From Anaerolineales bacterium (GTDB lineage Bacteria > Chloroflexota > Anaerolineae > Anaerolineales > UBA4823), in NCBI GenBank assembly GCA_025057645.1, contig JANXBJ010000015.1, positions 1 to 64,000 on the forward strand: 64,000 nucleotides of DNA, read 5' to 3'. How positions within the stretch are numbered: position 1 is the stretch's first letter; every line of letters begins with the position of its first letter. Below are positions 16,302-56,179 of this stretch, piece by piece. The position numbers and the translations under genes were made by a program. The notes beneath the pieces were generated by a model. It saw only the letters and a list, made by a program, of their open reading frames with translations, was not told the origin of the DNA and searched no databases.

Positions 16302-17669
16302 TTATATTAAACCCTCAACTTTCAACTCCGTTTTCACTTGGTCATACATCGCTTGCCACTCCGGGGTCGGCCGCAGTGTCTTCAGGTTGTAGACTTGGTC
16401 AAAAGGTTTCCCCGGATTACCTCCTTCCTGAGCAAATACTTTTTCGTATCTTTCCAAAAGGCGTAACACCCACTGATTGGCTTCCTCCCGCGTCATTTTC
16501 TTCCGGTAAGCCGCCAAGGCTACCTCTGCCATCCAACGCGCTTCCAGGCCGGAACAGTTAGGCAGCTTGCCATCTGCCGAACCACAGCCTTCTAAGTGGC
16601 ATGCAGAGACAGAGTTAACAATCGCATTGGCCGCAGTCTCATAGAGGAGCTCGATTGTTCCTGCTCCCGATTTCGGGTAGATATCGGCCACGATGATCGC
16701 AGGCGCATTCCGGGCAAAAGCCTGGCCGACAGCGCTGATCACCCATAGGACTTCCCGCGTTGTGGTTGCCACGTGGCGAATGTGGATCGGGTGCAAAATG
16801 TGATAGTCCGCCAGACAAACTACGTTAGAAACGATAAACGAAGCCACATTGATGACCGCCGAACCCGGCGGGCCACCGCCTAAGCCACCCACAATAACAC
16901 ATGGCAGGGAAGCGTTGATCATTCCGTATTCCCACGAATTCACCGCGCGAGCCATATTGCGAAAGTCCAGTTTCAGCTCATTGAGCAGCGGCACGAGATG
17001 CGAGTCGCAGCGCCGCAACAGGTTAGGCTGTGCAACAGCCAAGTCGCCCAGTTCAGAAACGCTCGATTGGGCAGCGAGCATTCCCATGCCGGGGCGACCC
17101 ACTCGGGCTAGTGCAGTATGGAGAAGCTGCAATTCCCTGCGGGTAGCCACGATTTCCAACGGCTGCCCGGTGCGCACTTCTCGCCCCGCAATCGCTGTCA
17201 ATGTGCCGCAGGTCGCTAAATCGATCAATGGCTCTTGAACGTAGGAGATCACGTTTTCCAAAAAATATTCTTCCGGAATGGGAGAGCCCGGGCTTCCTCC
17301 GAAGAAGAGCGGCGCCCGTTCATCTCCGATCCGCCGTGCATACAATGTGCGTGCGTCTTTCCCTTCGCCCATCACCAGGGTTTGGGGCATAGCACGAAGG
17401 CTTTCTTCAATTTCGTCAAGGGTAAGACGAATGATGCGCTCGGTGGAACGACAATAGACCCCCAATTCAATCGCCATTTCTAGCCCAGCTTGGAAAACTG
17501 CATCGATCAGAGCATCATCTGTCGGAATGATCTGATTACGATCCCACTCCAGACGATATTTCCTCACCAAGCGCCGAGCACTTGCGGCGACTTTCTCCAG
17601 GTCCCAATTTTCTTCGGAGATATACTCCCCGTCATAAGCCCGGTCGAGGATGCCCAGGTAATCGCGCAT
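16302..17669 (-). CDS. MtmB-type methylamine:corrinoid methyltransferase homologue lacking pyrrolysine
   Basis: 455 aa, collinear over its full length with archaeal monomethylamine methyltransferase MtmB (about 458 aa): N-terminal WDLEK, IIPTDDALIDAVFQAGLEM, GGSPGSPI, GRPGMG, SHLVPLLNELKLD, HIRHVATTTRE, and the C-terminal YNLKTLRPTPEW...YD. In MtmB the GRPGMG segment is followed by V-Pyl-G, with pyrrolysine 202 encoded by an amber codon. Here it reads GRPGMGMLAAQ, and the aligned residue is Leu198 (codon CTC, 17076-17078). The catalytic pyrrolysine is therefore absent. An acidic stretch after a Gly-rich loop in MtmB also appears replaced (GGGPPGSA). It probably transfers a methyl group from an unknown substrate to the adjacent corrinoid protein, 6 nt upstream. 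The substrate is unknown. Confidence 0.85.
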   Translation of the reverse strand: MRDYLGILDRAYDGEYISEENWDLEKVAASARRLVRKYRLEWDRNQIIPTDDALIDAVFQAGLEMAIELGVYCRSTERIIRLTLDEIEESLRAMPQTLVMGEGKDARTLYARRIGDERAPLFFGGSPGSPIPEEYFLENVISYVQEPLIDLATCGTLTAIAGREVRTGQPLEIVATRRELQLLHTALARVGRPGMGMLAAQSSVSELGDLAVAQPNLLRRCDSHLVPLLNELKLDFRNMARAVNSWEYGMINASLPCVIVGGLGGGPPGSAVINVASFIVSNVVCLADYHILHPIHIRHVATTTREVLWVISAVGQAFARNAPAIIVADIYPKSGAGTIELLYETAANAIVNSVSACHLEGCGSADGKLPNCSGLEARWMAEVALAAYRKKMTREEANQWVLRLLERYEKVFAQEGGNPGKPFDQVYNLKTLRPTPEWQAMYDQVKTELKVEGLI

Positions 17670-17675
17670 GGTACT

Positions 17676-18329
17676 TCATCCTTCACCGAGCAAGCGGCGT
17701 GCCAACCGAACTGCTTCCACGGCGTCCCGTCCGGTGCCATCAGCACCAATGCTTTCTGCCCACTCAGGGGTTACCGAGGCACCCCCAACCATCACCCGAT
17801 ATTTTTGACGCAGCCCGCGCGCTTTCAACAATTCGATCAGATCCTTCATGTAGGGCATCGAGGTCGTGAGCAGGGCAGAGAGGGCAATAATGTCGGCCTT
17901 TGTCTCCTCAGCCTTCTCGATGATCGCATTCAACGGCACGTCCACACCCATATCGATGACTTCGTAACCGGCTGCCGCTAACATGGAAGCGACTATGTTC
18001 TTGCCGATATCGTGAATGTCGGTTTGGACAGTAGCAATGACGATTCTGGCTTTCTTTAGCGTCGGGTCGGTCGCTGCAGCTGCGGCGAGCAGGGGTTTGA
18101 GGATCTCCATAGCTGCCTTCAGAGCCCGCCCAGCCAGCATTAGATCGGGCAGGAAATATTCTCCCTCTTCAAACCGCTTGCCGACAATATCTGCACCGGG
18201 CATCAAGCCCTCGTTCAAAATGCGCAACGGACTTTCCCCCGCTTGGAGTGCTTCTCGTACGTATTCAACGACCGAGACATCGTCCCCTTCAACGACAGCT
18301 CGGCAAATCTTGCTAAGGGCATCCTCCAT
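17676..18329 (-). CDS. Corrinoid (methyl-carrier) protein, MtmC/MtbC type
   Basis: 217-aa cobalamin-binding protein of the methylamine/methionine-synthase-like family. It has a helical cap domain (1-88) and a Rossmann B12 domain with the base-off motif DIHDIG (104-109; lower axial ligand H106), SALLTTS (151-157) and VGGASV (181-186). It accepts the methyl group from a methyltransferase and passes it to a second one. It lies 6 nt upstream of the MtmB-like gene in the same operon, as mtmC and mtmB commonly are. No RamA-type corrinoid activator or methyl-acceptor transferase is in the window. Confidence 0.93.
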   Translation of the reverse strand: MEDALSKICRAVVEGDDVSVVEYVREALQAGESPLRILNEGLMPGADIVGKRFEEGEYFLPDLMLAGRALKAAMEILKPLLAAAAATDPTLKKARIVIATVQTDIHDIGKNIVASMLAAAGYEVIDMGVDVPLNAIIEKAEETKADIIALSALLTTSMPYMKDLIELLKARGLRQKYRVMVGGASVTPEWAESIGADGTGRDAVEAVRLARRLLGEG

Positions 18330-20238: not shown

Positions 20239-20577
20239 GTTCCGACCTAACCGACCGAAAAGAAAGCTCGATTGCGCCGCTCCCTCCAGCTTTCTGTGGT
20301 GGAAGCGGTTCTGTTTTGTGAGTATAGTTTGGAAGCACAAAGCCTTCCCCACCAATGGCCTCCTCCAAGAGCAGATAACTCGCCGAAGGGTTACTCGCCG
20401 CAAAAAGTTCCAACCGATCGCCGCCTTTTCCTGCTCTCAATAGCCAACCTAACCGGAGAGAAGGTTGGCTATCTTTTTCCGTTCCGTAGAGAACTGGTCA
20501 CCCTTGCCGGGATCGAGAGCACATCCGCCCAACCGCCGAGGGTCGGTGTGGTATACTCGACTCCAAGAGATCTAGGT
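20239..20577. other. Intergenic region with terminator and weak promoter
   Basis: 339 nt. It contains the terminator of the sigma/anti-sigma operon (20442-20478) and an extended -10 (TGG-TATACT, 20549-20557) 20 nt before the next ATG. The reading frame of the next gene is open upstream to 20272 but looks non-coding across the terminator. No RNA gene was recognised. Confidence 0.5.
20442..20478 (+). terminator. Rho-independent terminator of sigma/anti-sigma operon
   Basis: AGCCAACC (20442-20449) pairs with GGTTGGCT (20463-20470) across a 13-nt loop, followed by ATCTTTTT. Confidence 0.8.
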
Positions 20578-21339
20578 ATGAACGAAGATATCCGCGAGAT
20601 TATCCGCAGAGAACTTCCCGTCTTACTGACCCAGGATCGGCAAATCCGTGACTGGGTGTGGCATCTGGTTCACGACTACGCTCCCAGCCGAATTGAAACC
20701 GAAAGCCGCTTCGAGCAAATCCTGGCAGAAATCCGGGCTATGCGCGAGGAAAGCGAACGCCGCTGGCAAGAAAATCAGCGCAAATGGGAAGAAAACCAAC
20801 GTAAATGGGAAGAAAATCAACGTCAACTCCAAGCCATGCAAGAAGAAGGTCAGCGTCGCTGGGAGGAAAATCAAAGCCAGATTCGAGCCCTCCTAGAAGA
20901 GATCAAGCGATTGGACCACCGCATTGACCGTACTCTTGGAGCCATCGGGGCGCGCTGGGGCGTATCAACTGAAAACTCCTTCTGCGATGCGCTGCGGGCG
21001 ATCCTCGAAGAGTCCTTTGGGGTTATGGTGGAGCAAGTTAGGTACTGGGATGAAAGCGGTGAGGTATTGAGTCACCCAGATCAAGTGGAGTTAGATGTAA
21101 TCATCCGAAACGGAGAGCTACTAGCTTGCGAAATCAAATCGGCTGCAAGCCGGGCAGATATCCACGCTTTCGAGCGCAAGGTGCGTTCGTACGAAAACCG
21201 AACTAACCGCAAAATCCATCGAATGCTCTTAATTTCGCCCATGGTGAGGAAAAAGGATCGAGAGCTTGCCGACAAGCTAGGCATAGAAGTATATAGCGAT
21301 GCAGAGGACGTAACCCTAGGGGAAGAACCGATGGCTTAA
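20578..21339 (+). CDS. Heptad-repeat protein with PD-(D/E)XK-like domain (DUF3782-like), short paralogue
   Basis: 253 aa. N-terminal helical region (1-58); a short Trp-rich coiled coil of about five heptads of the type RRWEENQ (59-99); C-terminal nuclease-like domain (115-250). The last carries a PD-(D/E)XK pattern, D173 (VELDVII) then E185-x-K187 (CEIKS). The architecture matches proteins annotated DUF3782, a family common in Cyanobacteria and Chloroflexota and of unknown function. A longer paralogue lies at 37714-38778. It is monocistronic: a terminator lies before it and a strong one after it. Start ATG 20578 follows an extended -10. Confidence 0.8.
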   Translation: MNEDIREIIRRELPVLLTQDRQIRDWVWHLVHDYAPSRIETESRFEQILAEIRAMREESERRWQENQRKWEENQRKWEENQRQLQAMQEEGQRRWEENQSQIRALLEEIKRLDHRIDRTLGAIGARWGVSTENSFCDALRAILEESFGVMVEQVRYWDESGEVLSHPDQVELDVIIRNGELLACEIKSAASRADIHAFERKVRSYENRTNRKIHRMLLISPMVRKKDRELADKLGIEVYSDAEDVTLGEEPMA

Positions 21340-37713: not shown

Positions 37714-38778
37714 CTATAGGGTCGAGAGCGCTTCGCCGGCTTCATCGGCATGAGTATAAACCTCGATACCTAACCTCTGAGCCACCTCAAGAGCTTTCGG
37801 TTCGACCATGGGAGAAATGATGATCAGGCGATCAGCTTTGCAATTGTGCAGCCTCTCGTAAAGACGAACCTTTCGCTCAAAAAGATACACCTCTCCTCTG
37901 CTCACTGAAGACTTAATTTCCCCTAAAATGAGCAACCCATCCTTGATAATCAAGTCCAATTCAACTTGCTCAGGATAGCCGAAGACCTCACCTGTTTCGT
38001 CCCATTCGGTGACGTTGATCACTTCAAGGCCTGCAAACTCTTTTAGCATCGCTTGCAGAGCATTGCGAAAAGCCTGCTCGGTATAAAGACCCCAGCGTGC
38101 GCCAAGCGCTCCTAAGGTCGTGTCAATTTTCCGACCCAATCTCTGGACCCCGGCGATCAATTGTCGAATTACCTGTTGGTTTTCTTCCCATTTTCGCTCA
38201 TTCTCTTCCCAGCGACGTTGGTCTTCTTGCCACTTTCGCTCATTCTCTTCCCAACGACGGTGATTCTCTTGCAGCTCCCGCCGGAAATCTTCCCATTTTC
38301 TTTCATTTTCTTCCCAGCGGCGCTGGTCTTCTTGCCACTTTCGCTCGTTCTCTTCCCAACGACGTTGGCTCTCCTCCCATCTCCTATCGCTCTCTTCCCA
38401 TCGGCGGCGGTACTCTCGCAGCTCGTTGCGAAATTCCTCCCACTTTCTCTCGTTCTCTTCCCAACGCCGTTGACCCTCCTCCCATCTCCTGTCGTATTCT
38501 TCCAGGCGCCGTTGACCCTCCTCCCACCTTCTGTCGTTTTCCTCCCATCGGCGGCGGTACTCTTGCAGCTCGTTGCGAAATTCCTCCCACTTGCGCTCAC
38601 TTTCGGCGCGCATCTGGCGGATTTCCTCGAGAAGTTGCTCGAAACGATCGCGAGTCTCCGCCCTCGAAGCGAAGTGCTCCCGGGAAAGGCGCAACACTGC
38701 CTCGCGCACCTCGGGATCTTTTTCGATGAGACGAGGCAACTCTTGCAAGATGATTTGCTTGATATGCTCACTTTCCAT
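37714..38778 (-). CDS. Heptad-repeat protein with PD-(D/E)XK-like domain (DUF3782-like), expanded paralogue
   Basis: 354 aa. An N-terminal helical region (1-58) is followed by about 20 heptads of Trp-rich coiled coil (60-200; units such as RRWEENE, RKWQEDQ, RRWEEGQ). The C-terminal nuclease-like domain (215-350) has D275 (VELDLII) and E287-x-K289 (GEIKS). It is paralogous to 20578-21339, matching at both ends but with a coiled coil about three times longer, so the repeat region has expanded. ATG 38778 was chosen because it aligns with the paralogue's start. Function unknown; DNA binding or cleavage is suggested only by the fold motif. Confidence 0.82.
   Translation of the reverse strand: MESEHIKQIILQELPRLIEKDPEVREAVLRLSREHFASRAETRDRFEQLLEEIRQMRAESERKWEEFRNELQEYRRRWEENDRRWEEGQRRLEEYDRRWEEGQRRWEENERKWEEFRNELREYRRRWEESDRRWEESQRRWEENERKWQEDQRRWEENERKWEDFRRELQENHRRWEENERKWQEDQRRWEENERKWEENQQVIRQLIAGVQRLGRKIDTTLGALGARWGLYTEQAFRNALQAMLKEFAGLEVINVTEWDETGEVFGYPEQVELDLIIKDGLLILGEIKSSVSRGEVYLFERKVRLYERLHNCKADRLIIISPMVEPKALEVAQRLGIEVYTHADEAGEALSTL
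38179..38601 (-). repeat. Tandem 21-bp coding repeats (Trp-rich heptads)
   Basis: About 20 degenerate 21-bp units encoding 7-residue repeats R-R/K-W-E-E-x-x, with larger higher-order duplications. The block RKWEEF-RNEL-EYRRRWEE occurs twice, and ENERKWQEDQRRWEENERKW occurs twice with near-identical DNA. This produces long spurious open frames on the other strand. Confidence 0.85.
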
Positions 38779-38809
38779 CTGAGGAAACACTCCGCAACTC
38801 ACTGAGAGG

Positions 38810-38818
38810 ATTATACCA
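38810..38818 (-). promoter_or_regulatory. Extended -10 promoter of the expanded heptad-repeat gene
   Basis: Minus strand TGG-TATAAT (TATAAT at 38810-38815), 31 nt upstream of the ATG; no -35 match. Confidence 0.5.
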
Positions 38819-38875
38819 TCCCCCTGAGCTAACGCGAGGGATGGCATCTGACAAGGTTTTCTCTGCGTAGATTCG

Positions 38876-54601: not shown

Positions 54602-56053
54602 TTACCGAAATTCCATCGCCGCCTTTTGAAAGGCTCGGGCCATGCGCCATAATTCCTGCGCTTGCTTCTCCTCGAGCGGCAGTGGTTGATGAGAAGCGAG
54701 AATGTGACGAGCAAGTTGGTTGGCGCGCTGGCGCATGTCTGCTCCGCCCAGTTGACGCTGAAATTGCGTCCACTCTAAACGGCTGGTCAGGCGGGGCTGC
54801 CATTGGTGCTCTTTGAAGCGGCGCAGGGTGTAAGGGTGGGTTAGGAATTGTCCACCGGGCCCGGCTTGTCGAATCTGGTCAAACGCCAGCGTCTCTTCGT
54901 TAACTTCAAAGCCTTCCGCTAGACGGTAGGCTGCGGCCAAAATTTCGTGATCGATGATGGCTTGTTCATAGCTGGAAGTGAGCAACTGGTTCATCATCCC
55001 GAAAGCCAGATGGATGAAATTCATGCCCGCCAGAGCGTAGGGAATATCCTGCAAGGCGCGTTCATACGCAGCTTGGGCATCGGGTAAGCAAGCATCCAAC
55101 CCCGAACTGCCCTCGAAGGGCAAGCCATAATAGCGCGCCATTTGCACACTGGCGACATGGAGGAGGGTTGCTTCGGGAGAGGCGCCGACATAGGTTCCCG
55201 TGCGCATATTCAATCCGCCAGAAGCAACCCCGATGATACAGGGATGTCCGGGACGGAGCAGTTGGACGAAGGTCAGGGAGGCTAAGACGTTGGCAGTGTG
55301 TTCGACCAAGGCGCCGGCGATCGTGACCGGCGCAGTGGCGCCCATCATATTGGTCGCCTCTAACCATAGGGGAATGCCATATTCGGCACAAGCGATCATC
55401 TCCTGCACGCGTTCGGCGGGGTGAATCAGCGGCGAGGTCAGACAGGTGACCAAGCTGAAAACCGGCGCTTGGCGCACCGCCTCTGTGCTGCCTTGGATGA
55501 CGCTCGCCATTTGCACCTGATCGTGCACGCTTTGCCCGCCTTCCCCTTGGGAGTAGTAGTGCTTGCTGCTGTTTTCGAGAATGGCGGCGAATAGGATGCG
55601 GTCGAAGCCTGGCTGCGGGATGTCCTGCGGGATGACCATGGCGTGCATGATGTCGGCCAGTTCCAGGGCGTCAATCAGGCGGGTGAAGTCGCGCAGGTCT
55701 TGCAAGGTGGCTGGGCGATGATTCCCGTCTAAATCCAAAACATTGAGCGCCGAGGAACCTGCGATGGTGTAAACATCCTCGAGTGTCACAGCGATGGATT
55801 GGGCAGGGTTACGAGCGTGAAGCTGAAGCTCGGAGGGAGCAGTCTCTAGCGCCCGGTTGAGAACATCTTCTGGGATAAAAACCAATCGCTGCTTAAAATC
55901 CACTTTGCAACCGTTGGCAGCCAGGATTTCGAGGGCGGGAGGCCAATCCACGCGCACACCCACTTCAGCCAGCACGCGCAGAACCGTTTGGTGAACCTGT
56001 TGCACTTGGTCAGGGGTGAGAAATTCGAGGCGGTGAGGGAGGTTGGGTCTCAA
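54602..56053 (-). CDS. MttB-family (trimethylamine methyltransferase-like) protein, without in-frame amber
   Basis: 483 aa, full length for the MttB/COG5598 family of TIM-barrel methyltransferases that move a methyl group from a quaternary amine to a corrinoid protein. Recognisable stretches: LTPDQVQQVHQTVLRVLAEVGV, SALNVLDLDG, HYYSQGEGG, EATNMMGATAPVTIAGALVEHTAN, and YYGLPFEGSSGLDACLPDAQAAYE. The reading frame is uninterrupted, so it is a non-pyrrolysine member like MtgB (glycine betaine). The substrate is unknown. The start is TTG 56053, preceded by CGGGAG and by TGC-TATAAT; a GTG at 56110 lies upstream of that promoter and is less likely. No corrinoid-protein gene is adjacent; the nearest is at 17676-18329. 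Confidence 0.88.
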   Translation of the reverse strand: MRPNLPHRLEFLTPDQVQQVHQTVLRVLAEVGVRVDWPPALEILAANGCKVDFKQRLVFIPEDVLNRALETAPSELQLHARNPAQSIAVTLEDVYTIAGSSALNVLDLDGNHRPATLQDLRDFTRLIDALELADIMHAMVIPQDIPQPGFDRILFAAILENSSKHYYSQGEGGQSVHDQVQMASVIQGSTEAVRQAPVFSLVTCLTSPLIHPAERVQEMIACAEYGIPLWLEATNMMGATAPVTIAGALVEHTANVLASLTFVQLLRPGHPCIIGVASGGLNMRTGTYVGASPEATLLHVASVQMARYYGLPFEGSSGLDACLPDAQAAYERALQDIPYALAGMNFIHLAFGMMNQLLTSSYEQAIIDHEILAAAYRLAEGFEVNEETLAFDQIRQAGPGGQFLTHPYTLRRFKEHQWQPRLTSRLEWTQFQRQLGGADMRQRANQLARHILASHQPLPLEEKQAQELWRMARAFQKAAMEFR

Positions 56054-56071
56054 AGTATTCTCCCGAGTCGG

Positions 56072-56080
56072 ATTATAGCA
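56072..56080 (-). promoter_or_regulatory. Extended -10 promoter of the MttB-family gene
   Basis: Minus strand TGC-TATAAT (TATAAT at 56072-56077), 18 nt before the TTG start; leader of about 12 nt containing CGGGAG. Confidence 0.6.
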
Positions 56081-56179
56081 CGAACAGGCATAAGAGAGTT
56101 TCCTCGGCACTTGCCCCGTTCCGGTCTAGTTCCCCTGTCTCAGCAACCCGAAAGGAGTTCTTCCGAAGACAGTGTCTGC

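Follow-up and report, generated by a model that had tools for sequence, protein, structure and literature searches.

The window (the whole stretch of DNA analysed, 64,000 nucleotides) encodes a real, functional-looking, pyrrolysine-free member of the MtmB methyltransferase family, MtxB, which has both a corrinoid partner, MtxC, and an importer of its own. Evidence from this importer and from the gene neighborhoods of orthologues suggests an operon for the uptake and demethylation of a methylated adenine-type nucleobase, with the methyl group passing via MtxC to the Wood-Ljungdahl pathway, a reading to which we give just short of an even chance.

Table 1. Genes and sites of the mtxB operon in the window.
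Feature	Position	Strand	Evidence
EcfT transmembrane coupling protein, 258 aa	13068..13844	-	PF02361 CbiQ, 115.8 bits
Fused ECF ATPase with two ABC domains (EcfA-EcfA'), 574 aa	13841..15565	-	TIGR04520 and TIGR04521 over cut-off
YkoE-like ECF substrate-binding (S) component, 220 aa	15579..16241	-	PF09819, 92.7 bits (cut-off 25.2); YkoE 5EDL, E 8.8e-16
mtxB, pyrrolysine-free MtmB-family methyltransferase, 455 aa, ATG start	16302..17669	-	PF05369 and MtmB 1l2q/1tv2, by sequence and fold
Leu198 codon CTC, at the position of M. barkeri MtmB Pyl202	17076..17078	-	phmmer alignment and sequence
mtxC, corrinoid (B12-binding) methyltransferase partner, 217 aa	17676..18329	-	PF02310 and PF02607 over cut-off
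DIHDIG cobalt-ligand motif of MtxC, residues 104-109	18003..18020	-	sequence reading

An earlier note on this DNA had aligned the product of mtxB with MtmB along its whole length and had proposed a profile search as a check. That search gave a full-length match, with MtxB residues 7-454 covering positions 6-450 of the 450-position PF05369 profile (347.7 bits against a cut-off of 25, E 1.3e-103), and phmmer aligned residues 6-454 with residues 11-456 of M. barkeri MtmB (E 4e-72), a protein to which MtxB is 33% identical. An AlphaFold model of MtxB built with 32 homologues had a pLDDT of 94.9, and its top Foldseek match was the M. barkeri MtmB crystal structure 1l2q (TM 0.95, rmsd 1.5 Å), the MttB/MtgB structures coming next in the list at a TM of about 0.5. 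Profile, alignment and fold all bear out the whole-length match, and the relationship between MtxB and MtmB is far beyond chance.

The pyrrolysine residue of M. barkeri MtmB (X202) lies opposite MtxB Leu198 in the phmmer alignment, and where MtmB has an amber codon MtxB has a leucine codon. Comparison by phmmer and in a 97-row alignment showed that MtmB Pyl202, E205, E229, E259 and Q333 correspond to L, Q, L, L and D in MtxB, Tyr335 being the only one of the compared active-site positions that is retained. We take E205, E229, E259, Q333 and Tyr335 to be the residues around Pyl in the MtmB structures and, as the first four of these are also replaced, the Pyl site is altered at several residues, not one. 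The phmmer alignment further showed MtmB D258-E259-Q and GGIEE replaced by SLP and GGPPG. Leucine occupies the Pyl position in 48/97 alignment rows, and the remaining rows have Gly, Met, Asn, Glu, Thr, Val or another residue; the Lys in this count is the M. barkeri MtmB Pyl as entered. No in-frame stop codon was found in 72 PF05369 rows from two Chloroflexota searches (the window gene is in both lists). The best PylS match in the own genome scored 19 bits against a cut-off of 178, and none was above cut-off in this and eight other genomes. The leucine at the Pyl202 position, the acidic stretch exchanged for GGGPPG and the independence from pyrrolysine, all put forward in the earlier note, thus stand.

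Only 6 nt (17670-17675) separate the end of mtxC from mtxB, and the DIHDIG motif, an instance of DxHxxG, is kept in 20/20 clustered MtxC homologues; coordinates and motif agree with the previous report of an intact corrinoid protein at this distance upstream. MtxC scored 214.1 bits against TIGR02370 (methyltransferase cognate corrinoid protein), just below the cut-off of 215.3. A corrinoid methyltransferase role for MtxB is very likely. Elsewhere in the window, a 502-aa MttB-family protein (54602-56110, minus strand; PF06253, 338 bits) without an in-frame stop is a second candidate corrinoid-type methyltransferase. Two related proteins (20272-21339, plus strand, and 37714-38847, minus strand) carry long RRWEEN/RKWEEN repeats followed by DUF3782 and a PD-(D/E)XK nuclease domain.

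The genes of the operon lie on one strand in the order mtxC-mtxB-ykoE-ecfAA'-ecfT, with the ECF genes downstream of mtxB, and the identical order was found again in two genomes of the same genus. With variations, linkage of mtxB to YkoE and ECF genes extended to 18 Chloroflexota and Spirochaetota genomes (19 locus rows); genes for a reactivase and an MtaA-like protein are added in some of these loci, and mtxC is missing beside mtxB in the Spirochaetota loci. Within the window's taxonomic family, strong PF09819 matches were seen only in four same-genus genomes, each of which also had an mtxB match, and two same-genus genomes had neither. A small PF13769 protein is encoded beyond the ECF genes in some mtxB operons (L067, 14749-15096, with equivalents in L063, L064, L068 and L069), directly before a reactivase gene in four of these five loci.

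In the YkoE structure 5EDL, the thiamine aminopyrimidine is held by Trp49, Glu77 and Gln95, the latter two as hydrogen-bonding ligands, while Tyr46 and Asp131 hold the thiazole (PMC5037267). Glu77 and Gln95 were invariant in 19/19 mtxB-linked YkoE-like S components. Trp49 was Phe in all 19, thus keeping the stacking aromatic, and both thiazole ligands were lost in every case (Tyr46 to Gln, Asp131 to Thr or Ser). Because the aminopyrimidine ligands are kept and the thiazole ligands replaced, the S component seems suited to an aminopyrimidine-type ring that carries no thiazole, a pattern that adenine and HMP fit equally as candidate ligands.

Orthologues 56-75% identical to MtxB adjoin adenine deaminase or xanthine dehydrogenase-type molybdenum hydroxylases, not ECF genes. 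The 75% orthologue (genome G007) is the last gene of a same-strand, mostly overlapping run of an mtxB paralogue, an amidohydrolase, a 5'-deoxyadenosine deaminase (527.3 bits, cut-off 522), three molybdenum-hydroxylase subunits, a cytosine-deaminase-like protein, mtxC and mtxB. A 67% orthologue (L071) lies in the order mtxC-mtxB-adenine deaminase-molybdenum-hydroxylase subunits and a 56% homologue, also in G007, in the order mtxB-adenine deaminase-mtxC (adenine deaminases of 613.6 and 503.0 bits, cut-off 472.5), whilst a 61% orthologue (G030) is near adenosine deaminase (312.9 bits, cut-off 216.6), molybdenum hydroxylase and Bmp ABC transporter genes. Distant mtxB paralogue clusters have the same kinds of gene alongside. 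Five Chloroflexota orthologues (L072, L073, L075, L077 and L080) had no informative neighbor genes, and no purine-catabolism gene was found beside the mtxB operon within the window; an adenine-deaminase-like gene (375.7 bits, below the 472.5 cut-off) does occur in the own genome, but away from the operon. A carbamoyltransferase (L056) in the cluster of the Chloroflexota genome G029 was rejected as YgeW and not counted as a purine gene, as the aspartate carbamoyltransferase model scored best (234 bits, cut-off 237). G029 has 21 PF05369 matches, a few of them contig-end fragments, and many of these genes lie together on a single contig of 42 kb that also carries several mtxC genes and genes for molybdenum hydroxylases and deaminase-like proteins.

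Bmp-type ABC transporter genes occur within 10 kb of mtxB in 14 Bacillota loci and form the gene block neighboring mtxB in the nine fully drawn maps. The cargo of Bmp transporters includes vitamins as well as nucleosides, and the nearest NCBIfam model here, matched below its cut-off, is a putative B6 transporter. In four Bacillota genomes (L087, 6659-8224; L084, L091 and L101) mtxB is followed by a gene for a 521-aa predicted membrane protein (permease), to which we gave no weight, as it matched nothing in Pfam or, by sequence, in the PDB, and its model was too poor (single-sequence AlphaFold pLDDT 40.5). Across 11 Chloroflexota genomes, a PF05369 gene lay no further than 10 kb from 11/49 Bmp genes (0.71 expected, Poisson 3e-10) and from 14/69 MoCoBD_2 genes (1.12 expected, Poisson 2e-11), placing Bmp and molybdenum-hydroxylase genes near PF05369 genes about 12-15 times as often as expected; because some of these genomes are closely related, the independent events are fewer than the p-values imply.

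Phylogenetic analysis placed M. barkeri MtmB outside an MtxB clade of 49 rows (SH-aLRT 99). ECF-type loci interleaved with loci of other types on the tree, with at least six changes, and ECF linkage as the mark of a separate clade was rejected by an AU test whose groups were defined after the first tree had been inspected (p-AU 4e-47). As close MtxBs occur with either ECF or purine-type genes, this suggests one kind of substrate for the two types of locus, and whether it is a purine we regard as an even call. A new substrate had been predicted in the earlier note and is indeed probable, but the real lead to its nature, namely the ECF transporter in the operon and the purine-type neighborhoods of orthologues, had been overlooked there.

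The same importer could instead serve thiamine-precursor scavenging, with import of HMP itself, or of an HMP analogue bearing a methyl or methoxy group, from which MtxBC would take the methyl group to give usable HMP. An S component of the YkoE-like HMP/thiamine family with just this pattern of ligands would suit such a role, and the absence of ThiC from 12/12 ECF-type genomes searched makes HMP import a live rival. No TPP riboswitch, however, was found in the 11-21 kb region of the window or in six related loci; searches for thiamine, purine and cobalamin riboswitches gave nothing relevant at the gathering threshold in the loci searched, nor any relevant riboswitch at E up to 1 in the 11-21 kb region. 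Close orthologues of MtxB are moreover found with adenine deaminase and molybdenum hydroxylases, and ECF and non-ECF loci are interleaved on the tree, so we consider HMP scavenging unlikely and prefer a methylated adenine-type base.

Another N-heterocycle or an N-methyl amide (creatinine, N-methylhydantoin, N-methylnicotinate) might also be demethylated by MtxB, the linked amidohydrolases and molybdenum hydroxylases then working on its ring. The cytosine-deaminase-like character of linked amidohydrolases would fit, as would the scores of the linked molybdenum hydroxylases, which fall under the xanthine-dehydrogenase equivalog cut-offs; the linked adenine, adenosine and 5'-deoxyadenosine deaminases nevertheless exceed curated cut-offs, and we think such a substrate quite unlikely. 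It is improbable that MtxB demethylates a quaternary amine or methylamine in the manner of MtqB (tetramethylammonium, choline), since no betaine/choline-type transporter was among the labelled neighbors, where transporter genes were of the YkoE-ECF and Bmp types, and MtxB has only 33% identity to M. barkeri MtmB, even though MtqB is the sole non-Pyl MtmB whose function has been demonstrated (PMC13044021). Activity without a corrinoid protein, or in reverse by methylating the imported compound, is very improbable: Bacillota mtxB orthologues (loci L082-L103) have no adjacent mtxC, but elsewhere in their genomes are reactivases and corrinoid proteins that share 41-48% identity with MtxC, and in most Chloroflexota orthologues having an intact upstream region mtxC is directly upstream of mtxB.

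On the methylated adenine-type reading, the ECF transporter would bring in a methylated, adenine-like (aminopyrimidine-ring) nucleobase, which MtxB, a TIM barrel without pyrrolysine, would bind directly. MtxB would then move the N-methyl group, probably by direct transfer, onto the Co(I) corrinoid of MtxC, from which it would pass to tetrahydrofolate as the likely acceptor and so into the genome's Wood-Ljungdahl pathway. The demethylated base would enter purine salvage or be taken on by deaminases and molybdenum hydroxylases. The own genome has a CODH/ACS operon with scores over cut-offs (CODH 595/478, ACS 972/800, delta 399/280, gamma 503/306), an AcsV-like reactivase, a second reactivase adjoining a corrinoid protein, and a methyltetrahydrofolate methyltransferase-like protein (224 bits, under the cut-off of 259). 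In an Acidimicrobiia bin (L074), a 63% mtxB orthologue adjoins a second mtxC-mtxB pair, and the locus also holds a methyltetrahydrofolate methyltransferase-like protein (279.5 bits, cut-off 259), a reactivase, an MtaA-like protein and a deaminase.

More tentatively, much of the MtmB family that lacks pyrrolysine could be anaerobic B12-dependent N-demethylases of the various methylated purine bases and nucleosides that RNA and DNA release, with the window clade as an adenine-type member that has its own ECF importer; this wider claim we find possible but doubtful. If these proteins do demethylate methylpurines, anaerobes would have a way to recycle methylated nucleobases without oxygen. The turnover of necromass would then be connected with the Wood-Ljungdahl pathway in Chloroflexota and with gut Lachnospiraceae, and a family that owes its name mostly to pyrrolysine would gain a substrate rule. 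To our knowledge, no known MtmB-family enzyme has been reported to demethylate adenine-like bases, and no report of a corrinoid route for methylated nucleobase recycling was found in the literature searched.

Novelty in kind of the pyrrolysine-free MtmB branch, as implied by the earlier note, is not supported: a non-Pyl MtmB protein was already noted in 2022 (PMC9768040), and 1,061 Pyl and non-Pyl MtmBs were described in March 2026 (PMC13044021). Among the latter, MtqB of Methanococcoides methylutens Q3c is a non-Pyl MtmB assigned to tetramethylammonium and choline (PMC13044021), the one assignment in a family most of which is without an assigned function. What is new here is the genomic context of mtxB, that is the ECF operon and the purine-type neighborhoods of orthologues.

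Compared with the YkoE-type ECF transporter for HMP/thiamine (5EDL), the S component of the window belongs to the same Pfam family and shares the aminopyrimidine ligands, but its thiazole ligands are replaced, Trp49 is Phe, and it shares a gene run with a methyltransferase. MtxB has in common with M. barkeri MtmB (1L2Q, 1NTH, 1TV2) the fold over its whole length, PF05369, the GRPGMG turn and a corrinoid partner; unlike that enzyme it is bacterial, has Leu for Pyl202 and is linked to a predicted transporter for an aminopyrimidine-like compound. MtqB, compared here by its published description, likewise belongs to the MtmB family, lacks pyrrolysine and has a cognate corrinoid protein, but it is archaeal and acts on tetramethylammonium and choline. 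The pyrrolysine-free enzymes of the MttB superfamily (MtgB and others) are, like MtxB, corrinoid methyltransferases with a related TIM barrel, but they form a different family (PF06253) with about 11% identity to MtxB and a TM of about 0.5.
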